Of a stretch of 35,570 bases of DNA, positions 25,383 to 35,280 are shown in pieces (positions within the stretch are counted from its first letter, which is position 1; each line of letters opens with the position of its first letter). Both the position numbers and the translations under genes were made by a program. The notes beneath the pieces were generated by a model that was given only the letters and a program-made list of their open reading frames with translations, did not search any database and was not told the DNA's origin. This DNA is from Pseudomonadales bacterium (GTDB taxonomy: Bacteria > Pseudomonadota > Gammaproteobacteria > Pseudomonadales > Azotimanducaceae), in assembly GCA_021295875.1 (NCBI GenBank), contig JAGWBN010000043.1:1-35570 (forward strand), given 5' to 3'.

Positions 25383-26546
25383 TCAGCGCCGCTCAAAGGC
25401 GACCTGGCGGCGCTTGCTCGCCATCGCCACAAGCGAGTCGGCATAGCGAGCCGGGGCATGTTCGGTCTCCACCAGTTCGTAGCTTCGCCGCCCCATGTCC
25501 ACCAACCCTTCCCGGCAAGCCAACATCCCATCCAAGCCATCCACCAGGTCGTCCAAGTCATCCGTACGAAACACGTAGCCGTTCTCGCCGGGTCGAATGT
25601 AGCACCTCGTCCCATTCGTATCGCTGCAGACCACGGGAAGCGAGTGTGCCATGGCCTCCAAGGGCGACACCGCCGCTGGCTCATCGCGACTGGCGAGCAC
25701 GAACACATCGTGCCTGGAGTAGTGGGATTGGACCTCGGCGAACGGCACGTTGAGTTCAATCGTCACTTGGTCATCCAACCCCAAGCGGTGACGGTACTGC
25801 CTGACCCTTGCCAACTCGCGACGGTGTCTACGAGTACTGCACTCACCGATGATCGTAGCACTGACTCGGTGGCGCTGCGAGAGCGCGGCGATCGCGTCGA
25901 GGAACAGGCAATGGTTCTTGCGCGGCTCGAACTTGCCCACCGCGAGAAGGTTCACGGTGCCCGAGACAAACCAACGTTTCGCGTCCGCCGATAGCTGTCC
26001 GGGGATGACGAACGGCACATAGCGAACCGGATCGTCGATGCTCGGATGTGAACCGGAGACACTGAAGACCGGCGTGAACCAGTTCGCGTCCGTCGCACGA
26101 CAAAGTAGCCGGACCAAGAACCGACTTGACGAGTCTGCCCCAAAGTGACGGGAGGATTGGCTGTAGAAGATCAAACGTGAGCCAGCCACCTTCGACGCAA
26201 ACACGGCCAAGAGTCCGAACATCGAACTCGGATTCCTGACGACCAGGACATCCGGGCGCCGGGCGCGAACTTCCAAGATGAAACGAACTACCGGCGGCAG
26301 TCCGCCAACATCGCTATATCCGATACCCGGTACCAGCGATGCCGCGCGACGGATCAGGTCGAAGAACCGAGAAGTTCCGAGCACGACTGGCTCGACGGCC
26401 TCGTACGTCTCACTCTTGCCGCGCCGCAGCACCAGGAAAGACACCTCGTGCCCCGCCGCCAGCAGTGAGCTCACCGGATAGTGCTGGTTGGTGTGGTATC
26501 TGGGTGCCGTGTAGAGGAAATGCATCGAGACTTGAAATTGAGGCAC
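25383..26546 (-). CDS. Family-4 glycosyltransferase
   Basis: VGKFEPRKNHCLFLDAIAAL ... VFVLASRDEPAAVSPLEAMAHSLPVVCSDTNGTRCYIRPGENG. Confidence 0.82.
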   Translation of the reverse strand: MPQFQVSMHFLYTAPRYHTNQHYPVSSLLAAGHEVSFLVLRRGKSETYEAVEPVVLGTSRFFDLIRRAASLVPGIGYSDVGGLPPVVRFILEVRARRPDVLVVRNPSSMFGLLAVFASKVAGSRLIFYSQSSRHFGADSSSRFLVRLLCRATDANWFTPVFSVSGSHPSIDDPVRYVPFVIPGQLSADAKRWFVSGTVNLLAVGKFEPRKNHCLFLDAIAALSQRHRVSATIIGECSTRRHRRELARVRQYRHRLGLDDQVTIELNVPFAEVQSHYSRHDVFVLASRDEPAAVSPLEAMAHSLPVVCSDTNGTRCYIRPGENGYVFRTDDLDDLVDGLDGMLACREGLVDMGRRSYELVETEHAPARYADSLVAMASKRRQVAFERR

Positions 26547-26624
26547 TACCCTGGGCGCTTACGATTCAACGACTCTGTGGTGTCGACCAGGTCAACGACG
26601 ACCGACCAAAATAACCATCGCTGA

Positions 26625-27353
26625 TCAGACCTCGCGGCGTTTAACGACATAGTAGTAATCCGCCACATCCGATTTAACTGGACTCTCCTCATGTTCGCAG
26701 AAGAACTCATCCACCGCCCGTGTTGCGCCCGGCCAAACCGATTTGCCGTACTCGTCGAATGCCACGATCCCCCCCGGCGCCACATGTGGCCACAGTTCCC
26801 GAAGCGCCGTCTTGTAGGACTCGTAGAAGTCGACGTCCAAGTGCAGCAACGCGATTGGAGCACTGTCATATGACGGCAGAGTGTCTTCGAAAAGGCCGGG
26901 TACGAAGGATACCTTCTCCGCAATGAACGACTCAGCAAGCCCGTTGTGTTTGAGCAAGTCGCCGACGTTGTCGACGGAGTGTCGCCACCAACCGGTCTTG
27001 TGGGCATTCTCTACGCCATCTGCCGCGGTTGGCGGGGGTATACCCTCGAATGTATCGAAGCCAATGATGTCTCTGGGCCTTGTCAAGTACTGACTGATAA
27101 TGGCGAAGGCAAAAATCGATCGTCCCGGACCGACGCCGCACTCAACAATGCAACCGTCTACGTCTTCTAGAACTCTCAACACGGACTCGAAGTGTAGAAA
27201 CCGACGAGTGAGTTTCTCATTCATCTCGTAGTACCACACGTCAGCTCGTTTCTCGGGGATCCTAGCGATCTCCAATCCAAATCTGTCTCTCGCGAGCAGT
27301 CGTAGTCCCGTCCGGAGTCTTCTCCCCATCAGCCTGAACAGCATTTCACTCAC
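26625..27353 (-). CDS. TylF/MycF-like O-methyltransferase (copy 1)
   Basis: IVECGVGPGRSIFAFAII...IGFDTFEGIPPPTAADG...ALLHLDVDFYESYKTALRELWPHVAPGGIVAFDEYGKSVWPGATRAVDEFF. Confidence 0.82.
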   Translation of the reverse strand: MSEMLFRLMGRRLRTGLRLLARDRFGLEIARIPEKRADVWYYEMNEKLTRRFLHFESVLRVLEDVDGCIVECGVGPGRSIFAFAIISQYLTRPRDIIGFDTFEGIPPPTAADGVENAHKTGWWRHSVDNVGDLLKHNGLAESFIAEKVSFVPGLFEDTLPSYDSAPIALLHLDVDFYESYKTALRELWPHVAPGGIVAFDEYGKSVWPGATRAVDEFFCEHEESPVKSDVADYYYVVKRREV

Positions 27354-27477
27354 TCAGCCTTACCCCCTCTTGAACTTCCACCATCGAACACAAATTGACT
27401 ACGTCACCAAGTCAGTGGCGGTGCGCAATTCTCCAATGTGACGATTGACCATATCGTTACGGACCATCGATTCGCTA

Positions 27478-28233
27478 TCATCCAACGCGACTTTTGACAA
27501 CATAGTACAGATCCACTACCTCCGACTTCACGGGTCTCTCGCTCCGATTTGCGAAGAACTCATCGACCGCTTTCGTTGCACCGGGAAATACCGGCTTACG
27601 GTACTCGTCAAACGCAACAATCCCTCCCGGGGCTACGTGAGGCCAGAGTTCCCGAAGCGCCGTCCTGTACGACTCGTAGAAGTCAATGTCCAAGTGCAGA
27701 AGGGCGATTGGAGCACCGTCGTACTCCCGCAATGTGTCCTCGAATAGGCCTCGGTGGAAGGAGATTCTCTCCTTGATGAACGACTGTGAGAGCCCATTGT
27801 ATTGCAGCAGCTGCAACACATCCTCCATAGGATGTCTCCACCAGCCGGTCTTGTGCGCATTGCCTTCGCCATCTTCAGCCGTTGGCGGCGGTATGCCTTC
27901 GAATGTGTCGAAACCAACGATCACCCTTGGCTTGGTCACATACTGGCTGATAATGGAGAATGCGAACAATGATCTCCCGGAACCTACGCCGCACTCGACG
28001 ATACGACCATCAATTGCTTCCACCTCCTTCAGGAGCATTTCGAAGTGCAGAAATCGACGAGCATTGTTCCTACTCATCTCATAGCTCCACATGGGAAACC
28101 GCTTCTCAGGAACAGGGATGATCTGCAATCCGAACCACTTCCTTACTATTCGCTGCACCCGTTGTCGGCCCTTTGTGCCTATGAGTTTCCGTAGCAATTC
28201 TCGTACTCCGTTCGTCATTCTAGTTCGCGCCAC
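27478..28233 (-). CDS. TylF/MycF-like O-methyltransferase (copy 2, tandem paralogue)
   Basis: IVECGVGSGRSLFAFSIISQYVTKPRVIVGFDTFEGIPPPTAEDG...GIVAFDEYRKPVFPGATKAVDEFFANRSERPVKSEVVDLYYVVK; strongly similar to 26625..27353. Confidence 0.82.
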   Translation of the reverse strand: MARTRMTNGVRELLRKLIGTKGRQRVQRIVRKWFGLQIIPVPEKRFPMWSYEMSRNNARRFLHFEMLLKEVEAIDGRIVECGVGSGRSLFAFSIISQYVTKPRVIVGFDTFEGIPPPTAEDGEGNAHKTGWWRHPMEDVLQLLQYNGLSQSFIKERISFHRGLFEDTLREYDGAPIALLHLDIDFYESYRTALRELWPHVAPGGIVAFDEYRKPVFPGATKAVDEFFANRSERPVKSEVVDLYYVVKSRVG

Positions 28234-29122
28234 CTTTGATTCGACCTCGCGAGAGAATCACAGTGCAGTAGTCTTCGCCCTGATAGGTGCCGCGCCTCGG
28301 CATTGCAACTGCCTCCATGGACCAACACCCATCGCCAGACTCCATGAACTCGTCCACGGCTCTCTTGACACCGCAAAACCGCTGCTTGACCAACCGATAC
28401 TCTGTCGCCTGCCCCAGTTTAGGGGCGAAGGCCCAAAGTCGTTTCGAGACCCACCCAGTTGCCTGTCCAATCAGCCAGGCGAGAAGGTTCAGGGCCCGTG
28501 ACCGAATCCGACCTACAACTTCGCCGAGATGGTAGTCATCCAATAGGATGACACCCGTCTCCACCATTAGTCCATCCAGCAACGCCAGCTCTTGCCGCAC
28601 GTCCTCGTAGCTGTGACTCCCATCGAGGAACGCGACTCCGATGGGTCCGTGTTTCCAGCTGCTTAGCAACTCCACGGATCTGCCCTTCGCCACAACCACC
28701 GCCGAGGAGCCATCCCGATACCAACGGTCCCATATTTCCCTACGTGAGATCGATAGGCCGACGAGTGGATCGTCCTGACTGTGCTTCTCGATATGCCAGT
28801 TGACGCTTTCGGAATGTCCGACAGTGTCTACGGTGTAGACCGTGCCGATTACCTTTGCATCCTGCATGGCTCGCGCCATGACGAGTGCCGAGAATCCACG
28901 TGCTGTGCCGACATCGAGCGTGATCGCATTGGGTTGGGCCGGCAAGACGGCAAGTGCGAGCTTGTAAAGCAACTTCCCGTGCTCTCCACCGTCACCTCCC
29001 CTCAACACTGTCACGGCACGCCGGTACCAGTCATCCGACAATTCGGCAGTATCGATCCGAGCCAGCCTGTCCTCCAAGCCCACCACGGCAGCATCCTTGG
29101 GAAGTACCAACTTCGCGACCAT
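28220..29122 (-). CDS. Class I SAM-dependent methyltransferase (Methyltransf_24-like)
   Basis: NAITLDVGTARGFSALVMARAMQDAKVIGTVYTVDTVGH...GPIGVAFLDGSHSYEDVRQELALLDGLMVETGVILLDDYHLGEVVGRI; 14-nt overlap with the next gene. Confidence 0.75.
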   Translation of the reverse strand: MVAKLVLPKDAAVVGLEDRLARIDTAELSDDWYRRAVTVLRGGDGGEHGKLLYKLALAVLPAQPNAITLDVGTARGFSALVMARAMQDAKVIGTVYTVDTVGHSESVNWHIEKHSQDDPLVGLSISRREIWDRWYRDGSSAVVVAKGRSVELLSSWKHGPIGVAFLDGSHSYEDVRQELALLDGLMVETGVILLDDYHLGEVVGRIRSRALNLLAWLIGQATGWVSKRLWAFAPKLGQATEYRLVKQRFCGVKRAVDEFMESGDGCWSMEAVAMPRRGTYQGEDYCTVILSRGRIKGGAN

Positions 29123-29124
29123 GA

Positions 29125-30315
29125 TCAGGTTCGCCTCCGCTCCAGCACCCGCCGATAGAGTTCTATGTGGTGATTGACGACAGCAGAAATCGAAAAGCGC
29201 TCAACGGTTTCCAATGCACACTCGACCAAGCGAGCGCGCAGGCTTGGTGTCGTATACAAGCGGACGAGCGCGGATGCGATCTGAGCTGGTTCCGAGGGGG
29301 CAATCAATAGGCCATTGCGGTCGTGTTCAACGAAGTCCGGTATGCCCCCTACCTTGGCGGCCACGACGGCCACACCGAATTTCATCGCCTCGAGAGCAAC
29401 GATGCCAAACGCCTCGAAATGGGACGGGAGACAGTACACATCGCTCGCGCCGAAGTATGCTCGCTTCCTCGCTCCAGTCAGTTCGCCGCTAAACACGATG
29501 CGGTCGGCAAGGCCTTTCCCCTCGACCAGTTCCATGACAGGCTGAGCCAAAGGTCCAGTACAAGCCAAGATCAGCTTCGACGAGCCGAGTTCGTCTCGAA
29601 CCTGGGACATGGCTTCGACCAAGCCGTGAAGGTTCTTGAGCGACCTGCCACTGGACAAACAAAGGATGTACAAACCCCCGTTGGCCAACGGAGGGAGGTC
29701 GACGCTTGAATCGGTTCGCTCCTGTTCTTCGAAGTCATAGTCTCCCGACAGCGGTACGCCATTGTGAATGACTTGAACCGCGCCTTTCGGCGTCCCGGCT
29801 GCGACCGCAAAATCAACCATGTATTGGCTGACCACGACATGCGCCGACAGACGCCGTGTTACGTACCGCGCAAGCATCCTACCTTTGGGACTCCGTAGCG
29901 AGCCATAGTCCAAGCTCGGAATCGACGCCAAATCCTGCCCATGGGACGTCACCACGAGTTTGAACCTGACTCCAGACAAACGGCCTGCCATCAGTACGCA
30001 CAGACCATCCGGCACCAGTGAGTGGCAATGAACAACCTGGGGCCTGACCTGTCTCAGGAGGTGCCCAACTCTCAACGCTAGTCTCGGCAGTTGGCCCTTC
30101 CCAAAGCGGGCAACCCCTAGGTTGTGCACGCGTATGTTTCGAAACCGAACATGCTCGTCGGCACCGTCATTCGGATAGCCGAAGTGCACTTCCAATGCCA
30201 AGTCCTGACCGAGCCGGCGGTCAAGATTGTCGAGAAGCCACTTGAGAAAGTACTGGACGCCTCCAACCACTGGCAGAAAAGTCGTCGAAATGATCAGCAC
30301 ACGAGATGGACACAC
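29125..30315 (-). CDS. Family-4 glycosyltransferase
   Basis: VLIISTTFLPVVGGVQYFLKWLLDNL ... YCLPSHFEAFGIVALEAMKFGVAVVAAKVGGIPDFVEHDRNGLLI. Confidence 0.87.
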   Translation of the reverse strand: MCPSRVLIISTTFLPVVGGVQYFLKWLLDNLDRRLGQDLALEVHFGYPNDGADEHVRFRNIRVHNLGVARFGKGQLPRLALRVGHLLRQVRPQVVHCHSLVPDGLCVLMAGRLSGVRFKLVVTSHGQDLASIPSLDYGSLRSPKGRMLARYVTRRLSAHVVVSQYMVDFAVAAGTPKGAVQVIHNGVPLSGDYDFEEQERTDSSVDLPPLANGGLYILCLSSGRSLKNLHGLVEAMSQVRDELGSSKLILACTGPLAQPVMELVEGKGLADRIVFSGELTGARKRAYFGASDVYCLPSHFEAFGIVALEAMKFGVAVVAAKVGGIPDFVEHDRNGLLIAPSEPAQIASALVRLYTTPSLRARLVECALETVERFSISAVVNHHIELYRRVLERRRT

Positions 30316-30330
30316 GGGCGGACCCTCACC

Positions 30331-31326
30331 TCAACATCGGTGATCAACGGCGTCTTGAAACGCGGCAACGTACTCTCTAGCCGCCCGACCAACGAGGAAC
30401 CGATGGCGGTTCCTACGAACGCGGTCCGTCAACACACGATAGTCTCCGGACAGCGACGTAACAGTCTCCTGCAAGTCGTCCGCGAAGGGCACACCGCACT
30501 CCCCCACAAGTTCAGCATTCCCACCCGAATCCCGATAAACGACCGGCAACCCACATGCCATGGCCTCGACGATGGTATTGGAACAGGGTTCGTTCCAAGC
30601 CGCATGAACGAGTGCATGCGCGGTCCGCATCAATTCCGCGAGCTCATGCGATCTCAACACTCCCGCCAGCTCCACCCTCTCCGGGTCTACTTCCGGACAC
30701 CAGTTGCCTGCGAATACGACTTGCGTACGGGGTACCTTCGACAGCGACGCCAAAGTGGCGAAGCCCTTGCGTCGATTCGGCGACCAGGACGCCGCCACGA
30801 GACGCAAGACTCGCTCGGTACTCGGCGCGTTACGAGCCGGAAAAAAAATATCTGGATCAACACCGTTGTTAACAACGCTCGACCTCTTTGACGGATCGCC
30901 ACCATTTTCCAGAAAGCTCGTACGACAGAACTGACTCTGGAAGATCGTGTGGTCCACAAGTCGGTTCACCGCTGGTTGAACGTCGTCTGCGGCCGTGCGA
31001 TGCCCACGGGTGAGTTCGGGTACGCCATCGACACGATGAACAAGAACGGGACCCCCGCGTGACAGCGTCTTGAAATAGGAAAGGGGCAGCACACGCCCCA
31101 CCAAACTCATCCTGCCGGAATGACGCAGCTCGGCCACCTGGCGAACGCGAAGGCGTCGACCCGAGGCGTAGTTGAATCCATTCAACAGCACGACTTCGGT
31201 GGCGGTGGTCGGCCTGGTCGAAACGTCGTGTCCCATGCGAGCAAGCTCGGCAATGAGGGCCTTCAGGAACTGGTTGCCGCCCCCGGTAGGTACATCGACC
31301 GTGTCGAACAAGATGCAGATATTCAT
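30331..31326 (-). CDS. Family-4 glycosyltransferase
   Basis: MNICILFDTVDVPTGGGNQFLKALIAELARMGHDV ... NEPCSNTIVEAMACGLPVVYRDSGGNAELVGECGVPF. Confidence 0.84.
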   Translation of the reverse strand: MNICILFDTVDVPTGGGNQFLKALIAELARMGHDVSTRPTTATEVVLLNGFNYASGRRLRVRQVAELRHSGRMSLVGRVLPLSYFKTLSRGGPVLVHRVDGVPELTRGHRTAADDVQPAVNRLVDHTIFQSQFCRTSFLENGGDPSKRSSVVNNGVDPDIFFPARNAPSTERVLRLVAASWSPNRRKGFATLASLSKVPRTQVVFAGNWCPEVDPERVELAGVLRSHELAELMRTAHALVHAAWNEPCSNTIVEAMACGLPVVYRDSGGNAELVGECGVPFADDLQETVTSLSGDYRVLTDRVRRNRHRFLVGRAAREYVAAFQDAVDHRC

Positions 31327-31347
31327 TACAACAGTCCGGCGAAATGT

Positions 31348-32031
31348 CTACCCGTATCGGTCTTGCATGGCACTTACTCTCGCCGTGAACCATATGCCGG
31401 ACGGACTGGGGTCAGGCGTCGGCGATCTCTCGCCGACAAGACGCTTTAGGCCGACATGCAGCGGGTAGCCAACCAGAGCCAAGCACAAGCACAAGATCCT
31501 CAACACTCGTCCGACAAACCATCCGCGTATGTGTGGCCGCAGCAGATCGAAGGAGGAGAGAAAGACATTGCCACAACACTCGATGCAGATGGGCTCCAAT
31601 CCCGACTCCAATAGGAGCTTTTCCAACGAACTTGAAGTGTATCTAAAGTAATCATTCGGCGCACCGTGGACCCCGATAGTGAACGGTACCCAGCCGTACA
31701 GTTCGCCAGCCGGTTTCATTACGCGACAGATCTCCGCAAGCGCGGCGCGGTGATCAAATATGTGCTCCAAGACGTTGAAACAAATCACAGAATCCATACT
31801 GTCTCGATCCAACGGCATGTTGGTGGCGGAAGCAACCACGTCGACCTTCGGCCCCGGCTCGATGTCCATTGTCACGACACGCACGAGGTCTGAGTGAGCA
31901 TATTGGAGATAGGTCTGTCTACGTCCTCCCCCGATGTCGAGTACAAGCCCACGAGCCTCGAGGTCGTCCTTGACCTTCAAGTGCATCAGGGCTCGACCAA
32001 CGCTAGTCCCTGAGTAGACTTGGCGGAACAT
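31348..32031 (-). CDS. Class I SAM-dependent methyltransferase (Methyltransf_11-like); alternative GTG start at 32064
   Basis: LVLDIGGGRRQTYLQYAHSDLVRVVTMDIEPGPKVDVVASATNMPLDRDSMDSVICFNVLEHIFDHRAALAEICRVMKPAGELYGWVPF; upstream ORF extension overlaps the flippase and is rejected. Confidence 0.82.
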   Translation of the reverse strand: MFRQVYSGTSVGRALMHLKVKDDLEARGLVLDIGGGRRQTYLQYAHSDLVRVVTMDIEPGPKVDVVASATNMPLDRDSMDSVICFNVLEHIFDHRAALAEICRVMKPAGELYGWVPFTIGVHGAPNDYFRYTSSSLEKLLLESGLEPICIECCGNVFLSSFDLLRPHIRGWFVGRVLRILCLCLALVGYPLHVGLKRLVGERSPTPDPSPSGIWFTARVSAMQDRYG

Positions 32032-32071
32032 GGACGGCCATGCCGAAAGTGGCGGAGAGTTCACGGCACCG

Positions 32072-33385
32072 TCAGATCCGGTGACTTTGCCGCCACAGTT
32101 CGACCACGAACGGAACAAGCACCAAAACCGCTGCAATGGACGACGCAGTTCTTGCCCAAGCCGCTCCGTCCGACAGATAGAGTGGCACCAACCACACGAT
32201 GCCCACCACGGATACGACGAGCCCACCAAGCATGGAGATGATCGAGGGCCAGACGTGGCCAGTGGCGATAGGCAATCCCCCGACGACCGCAGCACTCGCT
32301 ATGAACGCCCCCGGAATCAGGATTAGCAGCAAGGGGGCTACCTCCACGAACGCCGAACCGAGGACGAGGACGGCGATCGGTTCGCGGAAGACTCCAAGTA
32401 CGGTGAAGCCCACGATGGCCAAGGCAAGCGAATAGGTCCCGAATCGAAACAACGTGCGGCGCAATGCCTCGCCTTGGCCCGAATACCACTGTCGACTAAG
32501 TTCCGGTTGGACGCTTGTGCGGATCAGGTGAAATGGGCGTCTCGCCATATCCATGATCCGCCTTGCTGCTCGATAGAGCCCCACATCGGCAGGACCCGCG
32601 AACTGGGCCACTAGGATCGTATCCACGTTCCCCGTCACCACTCCGATGGTCGTTCTCCCGTACGTGCCGACGTGGAACCCTATCACGTCGGCCGGTACCC
32701 GAATCGATGGTGATCGAAACAGGCCTGCGAAACCCGCCTGTCCCGCGAAGATGGCGGCTCCAAGGAGCATTCCCACCGTACCCACTGCCGCCCCCGCCAC
32801 GGTTGCCGACACGACTGTCAACAGGTCACCGCCGGCAAACCAAGCCATCGCAAGGACGGCCACTCGCGTCGCGTTGTCCGCGACGGAAACGCCCAGGTGC
32901 GCGCGCAAGCGATCCGCAAGCCTCAGCACGGCGAGCGCTTCCGACCTCGTCGCCAGCAAGATCCCAACGATGCCGTAGAGAAGCATAGCCCCCGTATGCG
33001 CCTCGTCGATCCTCAACAGACCGCTTACCGTCAGCGTCAGCGTAGCGATCACGCCGTATGCCACGAGTGCGAGTCCAAGGGAAACGGACACCGCAAAACG
33101 AAGAATCGAGGACGCCTCCTTACGGCGCCCGTCGGCGATGCTGCGGGTTGCGAACGTCGTTACCGTGTCGCCACCTGGAATCGCAATGAGACCATGGACT
33201 AGGGTGGTTGTCGCGATGATGACGGCGAGTGCACCGTAGCCTTCCAGTCCGAGAAGCCGAGCGGCTACGAAGATGTGCACGAATGCCCCGAGCACCTCGA
33301 CCGCTGTGACGGCGCCCGTCCAAAGGGTCTGCCGGGTTATGCGACGGTGGGAGTCGTCGGCGACCGCTACGGTAGGGGTGGTCAC
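32072..33385 (-). CDS. Wzx-like oligosaccharide flippase / polysaccharide biosynthesis protein
   Basis: Multi-TM, VAARLLGLEGYGALAVIIATTTLVHGLIAIPGGDTVTTFATR...IGVVTGNVDTILVAQFAGPADVGLYRAARRIMDM. Confidence 0.83.
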   Translation of the reverse strand: MTTPTVAVADDSHRRITRQTLWTGAVTAVEVLGAFVHIFVAARLLGLEGYGALAVIIATTTLVHGLIAIPGGDTVTTFATRSIADGRRKEASSILRFAVSVSLGLALVAYGVIATLTLTVSGLLRIDEAHTGAMLLYGIVGILLATRSEALAVLRLADRLRAHLGVSVADNATRVAVLAMAWFAGGDLLTVVSATVAGAAVGTVGMLLGAAIFAGQAGFAGLFRSPSIRVPADVIGFHVGTYGRTTIGVVTGNVDTILVAQFAGPADVGLYRAARRIMDMARRPFHLIRTSVQPELSRQWYSGQGEALRRTLFRFGTYSLALAIVGFTVLGVFREPIAVLVLGSAFVEVAPLLLILIPGAFIASAAVVGGLPIATGHVWPSIISMLGGLVVSVVGIVWLVPLYLSDGAAWARTASSIAAVLVLVPFVVELWRQSHRI

Positions 33386-33616: not shown

Positions 33617-33693
33617 CGGAGTGTAGCTCAGTCTGGTAGAGCACCGTCTTCGGGAGGCGGGGGCCGCCGGTTCAAGTCCGGCCACTCCGACCA
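33617..33693 (+). tRNA. tRNA-Pro (anticodon CGG), encoded CCA
   Basis: CGGAGTG...CACTCCG acceptor stem, D-arm AGCTCAGTCTGGTAGAGC, anticodon arm CCGTC-TTCGGGA-GGCGG, T-arm CCGGTTCAAGTCCGG, ending ACCA. Confidence 0.96.
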
Positions 33694-34140
33694 ATTCTGA
33701 TCCCGTTGACACCCGAAACCGGAACCGTCGTTCTCGGGCGGATAAAACTCCACTAAAATCAATATATTAACCGCAATCGATTTGCAGCTAAGAGCCCCTT
33801 TTGAACGCTCCCGCAGCGCAGGTAGGCGAGGCCAGCGTGAAGGTAGCAGACGCGGAATTGCCCTTCCGTCGTCAACTCGCGAACGACGGGAACCGAACAG
33901 CACCACGCGGGTTGGAGGGTCTTCGGCTTTAGAACTCGGGCGGTGGCCGGTACTCGGACCCCTCCGCGTCAACGACCTTGTCGACCCGTGCCCTTCTTCG
34001 CAGAGACTCAAGTGGCGGATTGACCGAATCGGTCGGCTTGTGTAGGCCCGCTGCGGCGCGACATTTTCCGACATTTCGCACGCTGGCCATGGCGAATGTC
34101 CGTCAGCGTCAGAGCGTCCGGGGGGCTATCGTGCCCATCC

Positions 34141-35280
34141 ATGGAACCGCTCGATCACGACACCAGCTACAAGGAGATCTACGGCCACCCCTTCATGGTC
34201 GAGGAACTCGCCCGTTGGCTGATACCCGCCTTGGAAGGCGGTCGGGAGCTGTTCGAGGCGCTGGACTTCGCGACCCTGACGCGGCTGCCGGAGCAATCCG
34301 TCTCGGGCGGCCGACGACGTAGCAACGACATGGTCTGGCGGGTGATGTTTCGCGGACGGGAAGGCGCACACCCCGAAGGATGGTTGCACCTGGTGTTGAT
34401 GCTGGAGTTCCAGTCGGAGGTCGACTTTCTGATGGCGTTGCGCTGCCGCCACTACGTCGACGGCTTCTACCTGGAGAACTGGCGCGGGACACGTTTCGGT
34501 GCTGCGGACCGATTGCCCCCGGTGCTGATGTTCGTCGTCTACAACGGCGCTCGGCGGTGGACGGCGGCGCGCCGCGTGGTCGACCTGGTGACCCCCGACA
34601 CCGCGGTTGCCGCAGAGGCGATGGACTTGTCGTGGCCGGGACCACTGTTCGCCGGCGACGGCTACCGGATGGTTGACAGCGGTCGGGTGGTTGCCGACGA
34701 TTGGAAGGAGAACAATGCCGCCGTGCTGCTCGCGGGTCTCGAGCATCCGTCGGTGGACACGGCGGGCGAGTTGGCGGTGCGGCTCTACCGGCACCTGGAG
34801 GCCGAGGAACTACGGCCCTTGCGGGAACTCCTGCTGAACTGGGCGCGTCGGGTGGTCGAGCGACGACTGGGCTGGGACATTGGAGTGGACGACATGGCTG
34901 AAGTGGATCGATTGCACGAGTCGGACGAGTTGGAGGCGTACTTCGAGAAGCGGCGACTGGCGTTCGTGAACGCGTACCGCGAGGAGGGCCGCCGGGAAGG
35001 CCGTGAGGAAGGTCGTGAGGAAGGGCTCAAGGAAGGGCGTGAGGAAGCTCGCAAGGAAGGGCGTGCGGAAGCTCGGGCGCGGGCGCGGGCGCTGCTTCAA
35101 CGCCAGGCGGCGAAGCGGTTCGGCACCCGGACCGCGGCATCGCTGACGGCATTCCTCGAGGGTGTCGACGACGCCGAGCGTCTGGCGGAAGCGGCGGACT
35201 GGATCGTCGACTGCGACACCGCTGCCGACCTGATTGTCCGACTCGAGGCCGCTGGCCACTCAGCCATCGACACCATGTAG
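34141..35280 (+). CDS. Rpn/YhgA-like (Transposase_31, PD-(D/E)XK) family putative nuclease; ORF opens at 34096
   Basis: SYKEIYGHPFMVEELARWLIP...SNDMVWRVMFRG...LHLVLMLEFQSEVDFLMALRCRHY (D...ExQ nuclease-like motif) and C-terminal REEGRREGREEGREEG repeats common in this family. Confidence 0.82.
   Translation: MEPLDHDTSYKEIYGHPFMVEELARWLIPALEGGRELFEALDFATLTRLPEQSVSGGRRRSNDMVWRVMFRGREGAHPEGWLHLVLMLEFQSEVDFLMALRCRHYVDGFYLENWRGTRFGAADRLPPVLMFVVYNGARRWTAARRVVDLVTPDTAVAAEAMDLSWPGPLFAGDGYRMVDSGRVVADDWKENNAAVLLAGLEHPSVDTAGELAVRLYRHLEAEELRPLRELLLNWARRVVERRLGWDIGVDDMAEVDRLHESDELEAYFEKRRLAFVNAYREEGRREGREEGREEGLKEGREEARKEGRAEARARARALLQRQAAKRFGTRTAASLTAFLEGVDDAERLAEAADWIVDCDTAADLIVRLEAAGHSAIDTM
34978..35073 (+). 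repeat. Eight imperfect 12-nt tandem units inside the Rpn-like CDS (REEG/REEA/KEG-type repeat)
   Basis: cgcgaggagggc/cgccgggaaggc/cgtgaggaaggt/cgtgaggaaggg/ctcaaggaaggg/cgtgaggaagct/cgcaaggaaggg/cgtgcggaagct. Confidence 0.85.

Follow-up and report, generated by a model that had tools for sequence, protein, structure and literature searches.

We suggest that the Rpn/YhgA-like nuclease gene in the window, by which we mean the whole stretch of 35,570 nucleotides analysed here, most probably forms a single-gene RpnL/RpnS toxin-antitoxin unit, in which a toxic nuclease and its inhibitor would be translated from one reading frame. The gene has a nuclease domain with intact catalytic residues and an internal start that is conserved in its relatives, among which the number of short repeats in the C-terminal part varies. 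Its translation into two products, their binding, the inhibition, the toxicity and a role in defence would follow those of the E. coli system. For E. coli, Zhong et al. (2023) have shown that a short protein, RpnS, is translated inside rpn genes and that it inhibits RpnL, the toxic nuclease; a short RpnS is also made from one C. difficile rpn gene expressed in E. coli (PMC10327210). The short forms of E. coli RpnA, RpnB and RpnP2 counteract the long forms in vivo, and that of RpnA does so in vitro as well (PMC10327210). The precedent cited in the preliminary description, an E. coli Rpn toxin inhibited by an internally translated short form, is real. The same description placed the gene in a non-enteric lineage, and the lineage is indeed non-enteric, but judging from its named relatives it still belongs to the Gammaproteobacteria.

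The long product, rpnL, is a full-length Rpn/YhgA-like nuclease of 379 aa encoded at 34141..35280 on the + strand, as assigned from a PF04754 match, the alignment of homologs and a family profile. ATG 34141 is the probable start, since homologs begin aligning there, and a further upstream ATG at 34096 is also a possible long start; the stop codon occupies 35278-35280. The first ~160 residues match the Pfam family PF04754 (Transposase_31/YhgA-like, PD-(D/E)XK nuclease) with E=2.6e-8 and 34.2 bits against a cut-off of 21, and the match covers residues 6-159 (34156..34617, + strand). A profile built from 25 homologs matched E. coli RpnB, RpnE, RpnC and RpnA at 8e-26 to 1.8e-19. When the protein was aligned to E. 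coli RpnA, D7 (34159-34161), D63 (34327-34329), E89 (34405-34407), Q91 (34411-34413) and R101 (34441-34443), the last four of which span 34327..34443 on the + strand, corresponded to D11, D63, E82, Q84 and R94, and mutation of these RpnA residues altered or abolished its phenotypes (PMC5350276). All of the homologs (119/119) have D63, E89, Q91 and R101, and 112/119 have D7. Profile matches of the window protein to FliH and Yae1 were discarded as low-complexity matches arising from the Glu/Gly-rich repeats. The 'transposase' annotation was not taken as the function of the gene, and the literature speaks against transposition (PMC10327210).

Inside this frame, the + strand reads ...ggctgggacattGGAGtggacgacATGgctgaagtg... 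at the internal start. As the preliminary description had it, GGAG at 34882-34885 is followed after an 8-nt spacer by an in-frame ATG at 34894-34896, from which a 128-aa product is predicted, and each of these elements is exact in the sequence. The Shine-Dalgarno (SD) motif (34882..34885, + strand) consists of the Gly codon GGA and the G of GTG and was assigned from the sequence and its conservation in the subfamily. The predicted C-terminal product, rpnS (34894..35280, + strand), is a candidate antitoxin that starts at ATG codon 252, assigned as a conserved Met and as the best start in the linker, which we define as the region from the end of the nuclease domain (W234) up to the repeats. The duplex energy of the internal SD with the anti-SD is -6.7 kcal/mol, compared with about -2 kcal/mol for the SD of the long start, and the local accessibility around the internal SD and ATG is moderately high (77th-79th percentile along the transcript) and not decisive.

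The AlphaFold2 model of the window protein has a mean pLDDT of 85.7, and its nuclease part shows an order of strands and helices that fits a PD-(D/E)XK core, followed by a helical region. The C-terminal domain of the model is all-helical: a short helix (residues 252-260) begins at the internal Met, one long helix (264-327) holds the repeats, and three short helices follow. Tandem Repeats Finder located the repeats at 34977..35071 on the + strand as an array of 7.9 copies of a 12-nt (4-aa) unit. A Pfam profile search gave no match to DUF4351 in the window protein, and no significant sequence similarity was found between its C-terminal domain and E. coli RpnS; profile scores against the E. coli Rpn tails were marginal and driven by the repeats. 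RpnAS (PDB 7TH0) was returned neither by a profile search of PDB sequences nor by Foldseek, and neither the sequence searches nor the fold searches of the PDB yielded a significant match, the long-helix C-terminal model alone being a poor query for a fold search. The putative inhibitor domain of the window gene and that of E. coli may or may not share a common ancestry, and no fold match was found between them.

Twelve locus pairs among the relatives carry a standalone C-terminal gene directly downstream of an rpn gene, and most of these copies are 81-97% identical to the C-terminus of the parent and keep an SD and ATG, like E. coli rpnE/ypaA. One locus (L040) has two copies whose homology to the parent begins at the M252 position. 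No standalone copy was found near the window gene within 9 kb downstream. The length of the repeat region differs between standalone copy and parent in 9/10 pairs (loci L042, L052, L104, L112, L113, L114, L121 and L065), by +4, +16, +12, -4, -4, -11, -11, -36 and +4 aa, and is equal in L115. By the published rule of repeat matching, copies of differing number should not neutralise their neighbour. This prediction speaks for an alternative, namely that the internal start is used and that the nuclease depends for its activity on the short protein as a structural or assembly subunit, much as Cas10d depends on Cas11d, instead of being inhibited by it. The comparative data, too, establish that the start is conserved and do not indicate the role of its product. 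We nevertheless regard the subunit reading as improbable, because the short forms of E. coli RpnA, RpnB and RpnP2 counteract the long ones (PMC10327210) and the same architecture of nuclease and repeats is found here.

How far the internal signal exceeds chance was assessed first in the window gene itself. ATG 34894 is the best start codon within its linker; synonymous-codon shuffling of the gene gave P = 0.13, and of the in-frame ATGs that Rpn genes carry elsewhere than in the linker, 48/584 (8%) reach an equal or better SD energy. Most single-gene synonymous shuffles were likewise not significant individually (the L037 and L041 rows being left out). An in-frame ATG at 34432 (codon 98, in the nuclease domain) even has a lower energy than the internal start (-10.7 vs -6.7 kcal/mol), with a strong GGAGG upstream at a long spacer; its signal is probably due to chance, as only 9/48 homolog clusters have a signal in that region. 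For comparison across the family, 119 distinct full-length Rpn homologs, selected for their resemblance to the window protein without regard to the signal, were aligned. They came from whole-genome searches and from named genomes, those outside the gene's own phylum being contig-search matches; a single-protein search of contigs gave no relative, and a query in the form of an alignment found relatives. The homologs span several phyla, some of them from records titled Alphaproteobacteria, Gemmatimonadetes, Clostridium, Paenibacillus and Treponema. An in-frame linker ATG with an SD energy <= -7 is present in 111/119 homologs, compared with 9 and 4 in the other frames. When the homologs were grouped into 48 clusters at 60% identity, an in-frame SD and ATG in the linker (E <= -6.7) was found in 47/48 clusters, the other two frames giving 3/48 and 3/48 and the other gene regions 0, 9, 2, 4 and 3 of 48. 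The linker SDs were also stronger than those obtained when synonymous codons were shuffled within the same linkers (mean -10.5 vs -7.5; Wilcoxon 9e-9 across the clusters). The same scan recovered the E. coli starts rpnA M244, rpnB M244, rpnC M241/M242 and rpnE M244 as a positive control; this SD and start are also present in ypaA. Across the 119 homologs, the distance from the Met to the first EG varies, with a median of 18. The internal signal is barely above chance in the window gene alone and far beyond chance with its homologs, and the internal start appears to be nearly universal among the sampled Rpn genes. Among the papers searched, we found no family-wide comparison of Rpn internal starts.

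These comparisons also bear on the reading in which there is no internal initiation, Met252 being kept for helix packing and GGAG arising from constraints of codon use and composition. The modest SD of the window gene, with its shuffle P value and the 8% of other ATGs that score as well or better, speaks for such a reading. It is rendered highly improbable by the 47/48 clusters that retain the signal although length and sequence of the linker vary strongly among subfamilies, by the low counts in the control frames and regions, by the recovery of the known E. coli starts, and by the choice of Gly codons at the SD site. The last point was examined in the close subfamily (roughly 40-50% identity; loci L033-L042 and L062). 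Its members have TTGGGAG, TTGGGGG or a similar purine-rich SD ~8 nt upstream of the internal Met, which is invariant in 13 aligned members, standalone C-terminal genes included; in L038 the local arrangement at the SD site differs. The SD-forming Gly codon is GGA or GGG in 8/8 separate lineages, compared with 111/338 (33%) of Gly codons overall, among which GGC is the commonest, and the purine bias at the SD site has P about 1.4e-4 if the lineages are independent. In most subfamily members the long-start SD is weaker than the internal SD (the two are closer in L036, L037 and L041), in agreement with E. coli, where the short protein is found in excess.

Two members of the subfamily have a strong signal further downstream. 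L042 has only a weak SD (-4.2) at the conserved Met, and its strong SD and ATG (-10.4) lie 16 codons beyond it. In L041, the conserved Met and an ATG 16 codons further on (-9.3) both carry strong signals, which suggests that members of the subfamily may differ in their exact start. That the short form of the window gene is made from another such internal start, nearer the repeats and closer to the canonical distance, is very unlikely, because the codon equivalent to those ATGs is TTC (Phe) and no ATG, GTG or TTG with a comparable SD lies downstream of 34894 in the linker.

L033 and L035 are 97.8% identical and differ by 24 nt in the repeat array. In L039 and L040 (G493:C49 and G495:C33), the same kind of palindromic repeat breaks the long frame at the same 5' place, and the internal start and the C-terminal frame are intact despite it; L033/L035, about 96-97% identical to L040, are without that repeat. 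At least 40 copies of the palindromic repeat occur in every one of four related genomes, and the genome of the window has 17. At L062:1700-1860, the sequence departs from that of L034 by 2 nt immediately ahead of the internal start, so that the nuclease domain and the C-terminal domain are read in different frames; this may be a real split or an assembly error.

The surroundings of the gene were also inspected. A tRNA-Pro(cgg) found by ARAGORN at 33617..33693 on the + strand lies upstream of the rpn gene and is a possible island boundary. The region at 26001-33385, which ends before this tRNA, has a lower GC content (0.56-0.62) than the left end of the window (0.67-0.69) and encodes a polysaccharide flippase, a methyltransferase and a glycosyltransferase, so that it looks like a surface-polysaccharide island. 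About 2 kb downstream of the rpn gene and beyond the window (L081:4372-6161, contig 37371-39160), an AAA_21 ATPase and a DUF4276 protein match PADLOC HEC-01A (8.5e-157) and HEC-01B (1.7e-64), a candidate defence pair. On the minus strand at L081:2391-4613 (contig 35390-37612), a gene with a T6SS Tle1-like phospholipase domain (PF09994, 1.6e-68) overlaps the window end, where the contig has masked stretches. The genome of the window further contains a 150-aa Rpn-like N-terminal remnant without an evident ExQ motif (G000:C6, L002). It also has an ORF of 423 aa (G000:C49, L003) that ends in a similar EGRQEGHREG repeat tail and is apparently not Rpn in its N-terminal part.

The closest known system is RpnL/RpnS (E. 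coli RpnA-E, plasmid RpnP2 and C. difficile Rpn; PF04754/COG5464; PMC10327210). The window gene has in common with it the nuclease domain with all five catalytic residues, the in-frame internal SD and ATG at the boundary of nuclease and C-terminal domain, and, within the latter domain, a long helix that bears 4-aa repeats. Further likenesses are the repeat number varying between near-identical orthologs, a hypervariability described by Zhong et al. (PMC10327210), the standalone C-terminal copies downstream in relatives of the gene, and nearby candidate defence genes. The repeats follow the internal Met at a distance of about 28 residues, compared with 8-20 in E. coli (PMC10327210), and the predicted short form has 128 aa, compared with about 49 aa in RpnA. 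The C-terminal domain is also longer than E. coli RpnS and without detectable sequence similarity to it, and the host is an uncultured gammaproteobacterium. The proposal that the gene holds two products in one is supported at the level of sequence, with nearly every testable hallmark present and the internal start conserved in relatives. In type I-D CRISPR, the short form Cas11d is made from an internal start of the Cas10d gene and is needed in the complex. Cas10d/Cas11d resembles the window gene in that the C-terminal part of a gene is translated separately, and differs in that Cas11d is a required complex partner and not an inhibitor, and in that the protein family is unrelated.

In the toxin-antitoxin reading, translation from 34141 would give RpnL, a PD-(D/E)XK DNA endonuclease that ends in an oligomerisation domain, and translation from the SD and ATG at 34882-34896 would give RpnS, the 128-residue C-terminal domain alone. 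RpnS would pair with the identical domain of RpnL via the long helix of 4-aa repeats and hold the nuclease inactive, and it would be in excess over RpnL because the internal SD is stronger than that of the long start. Release of RpnL, plausibly during phage infection, would then lead to the cutting of DNA.

The internal antitoxin has already been demonstrated in E. coli genes, and the short form from one C. difficile gene; the subfamily described here is divergent and its C-terminal domain apparently unrelated, and it retains the same internal start. Since the internal start is found in 47/48 divergent clusters, one nucleotide signature predicts that a further protein is hidden in a large class of genes whose usual annotation is that of single 'putative transposases', and tests of Rpn toxicity by expression of a single gene should allow for a hidden inhibitor. 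It is conceivable, if on balance doubtful, that selection has kept the internal start almost universally in PF04754 across phyla and that the C-terminal inhibitor domain has been repeatedly replaced or rebuilt. If this is true, Rpn would serve in general as a gene-within-gene platform for toxin and antitoxin in which the inhibitor modules can be exchanged. The downstream standalone copies of differing repeat number would then be non-cognate and might give protection from other Rpn variants.
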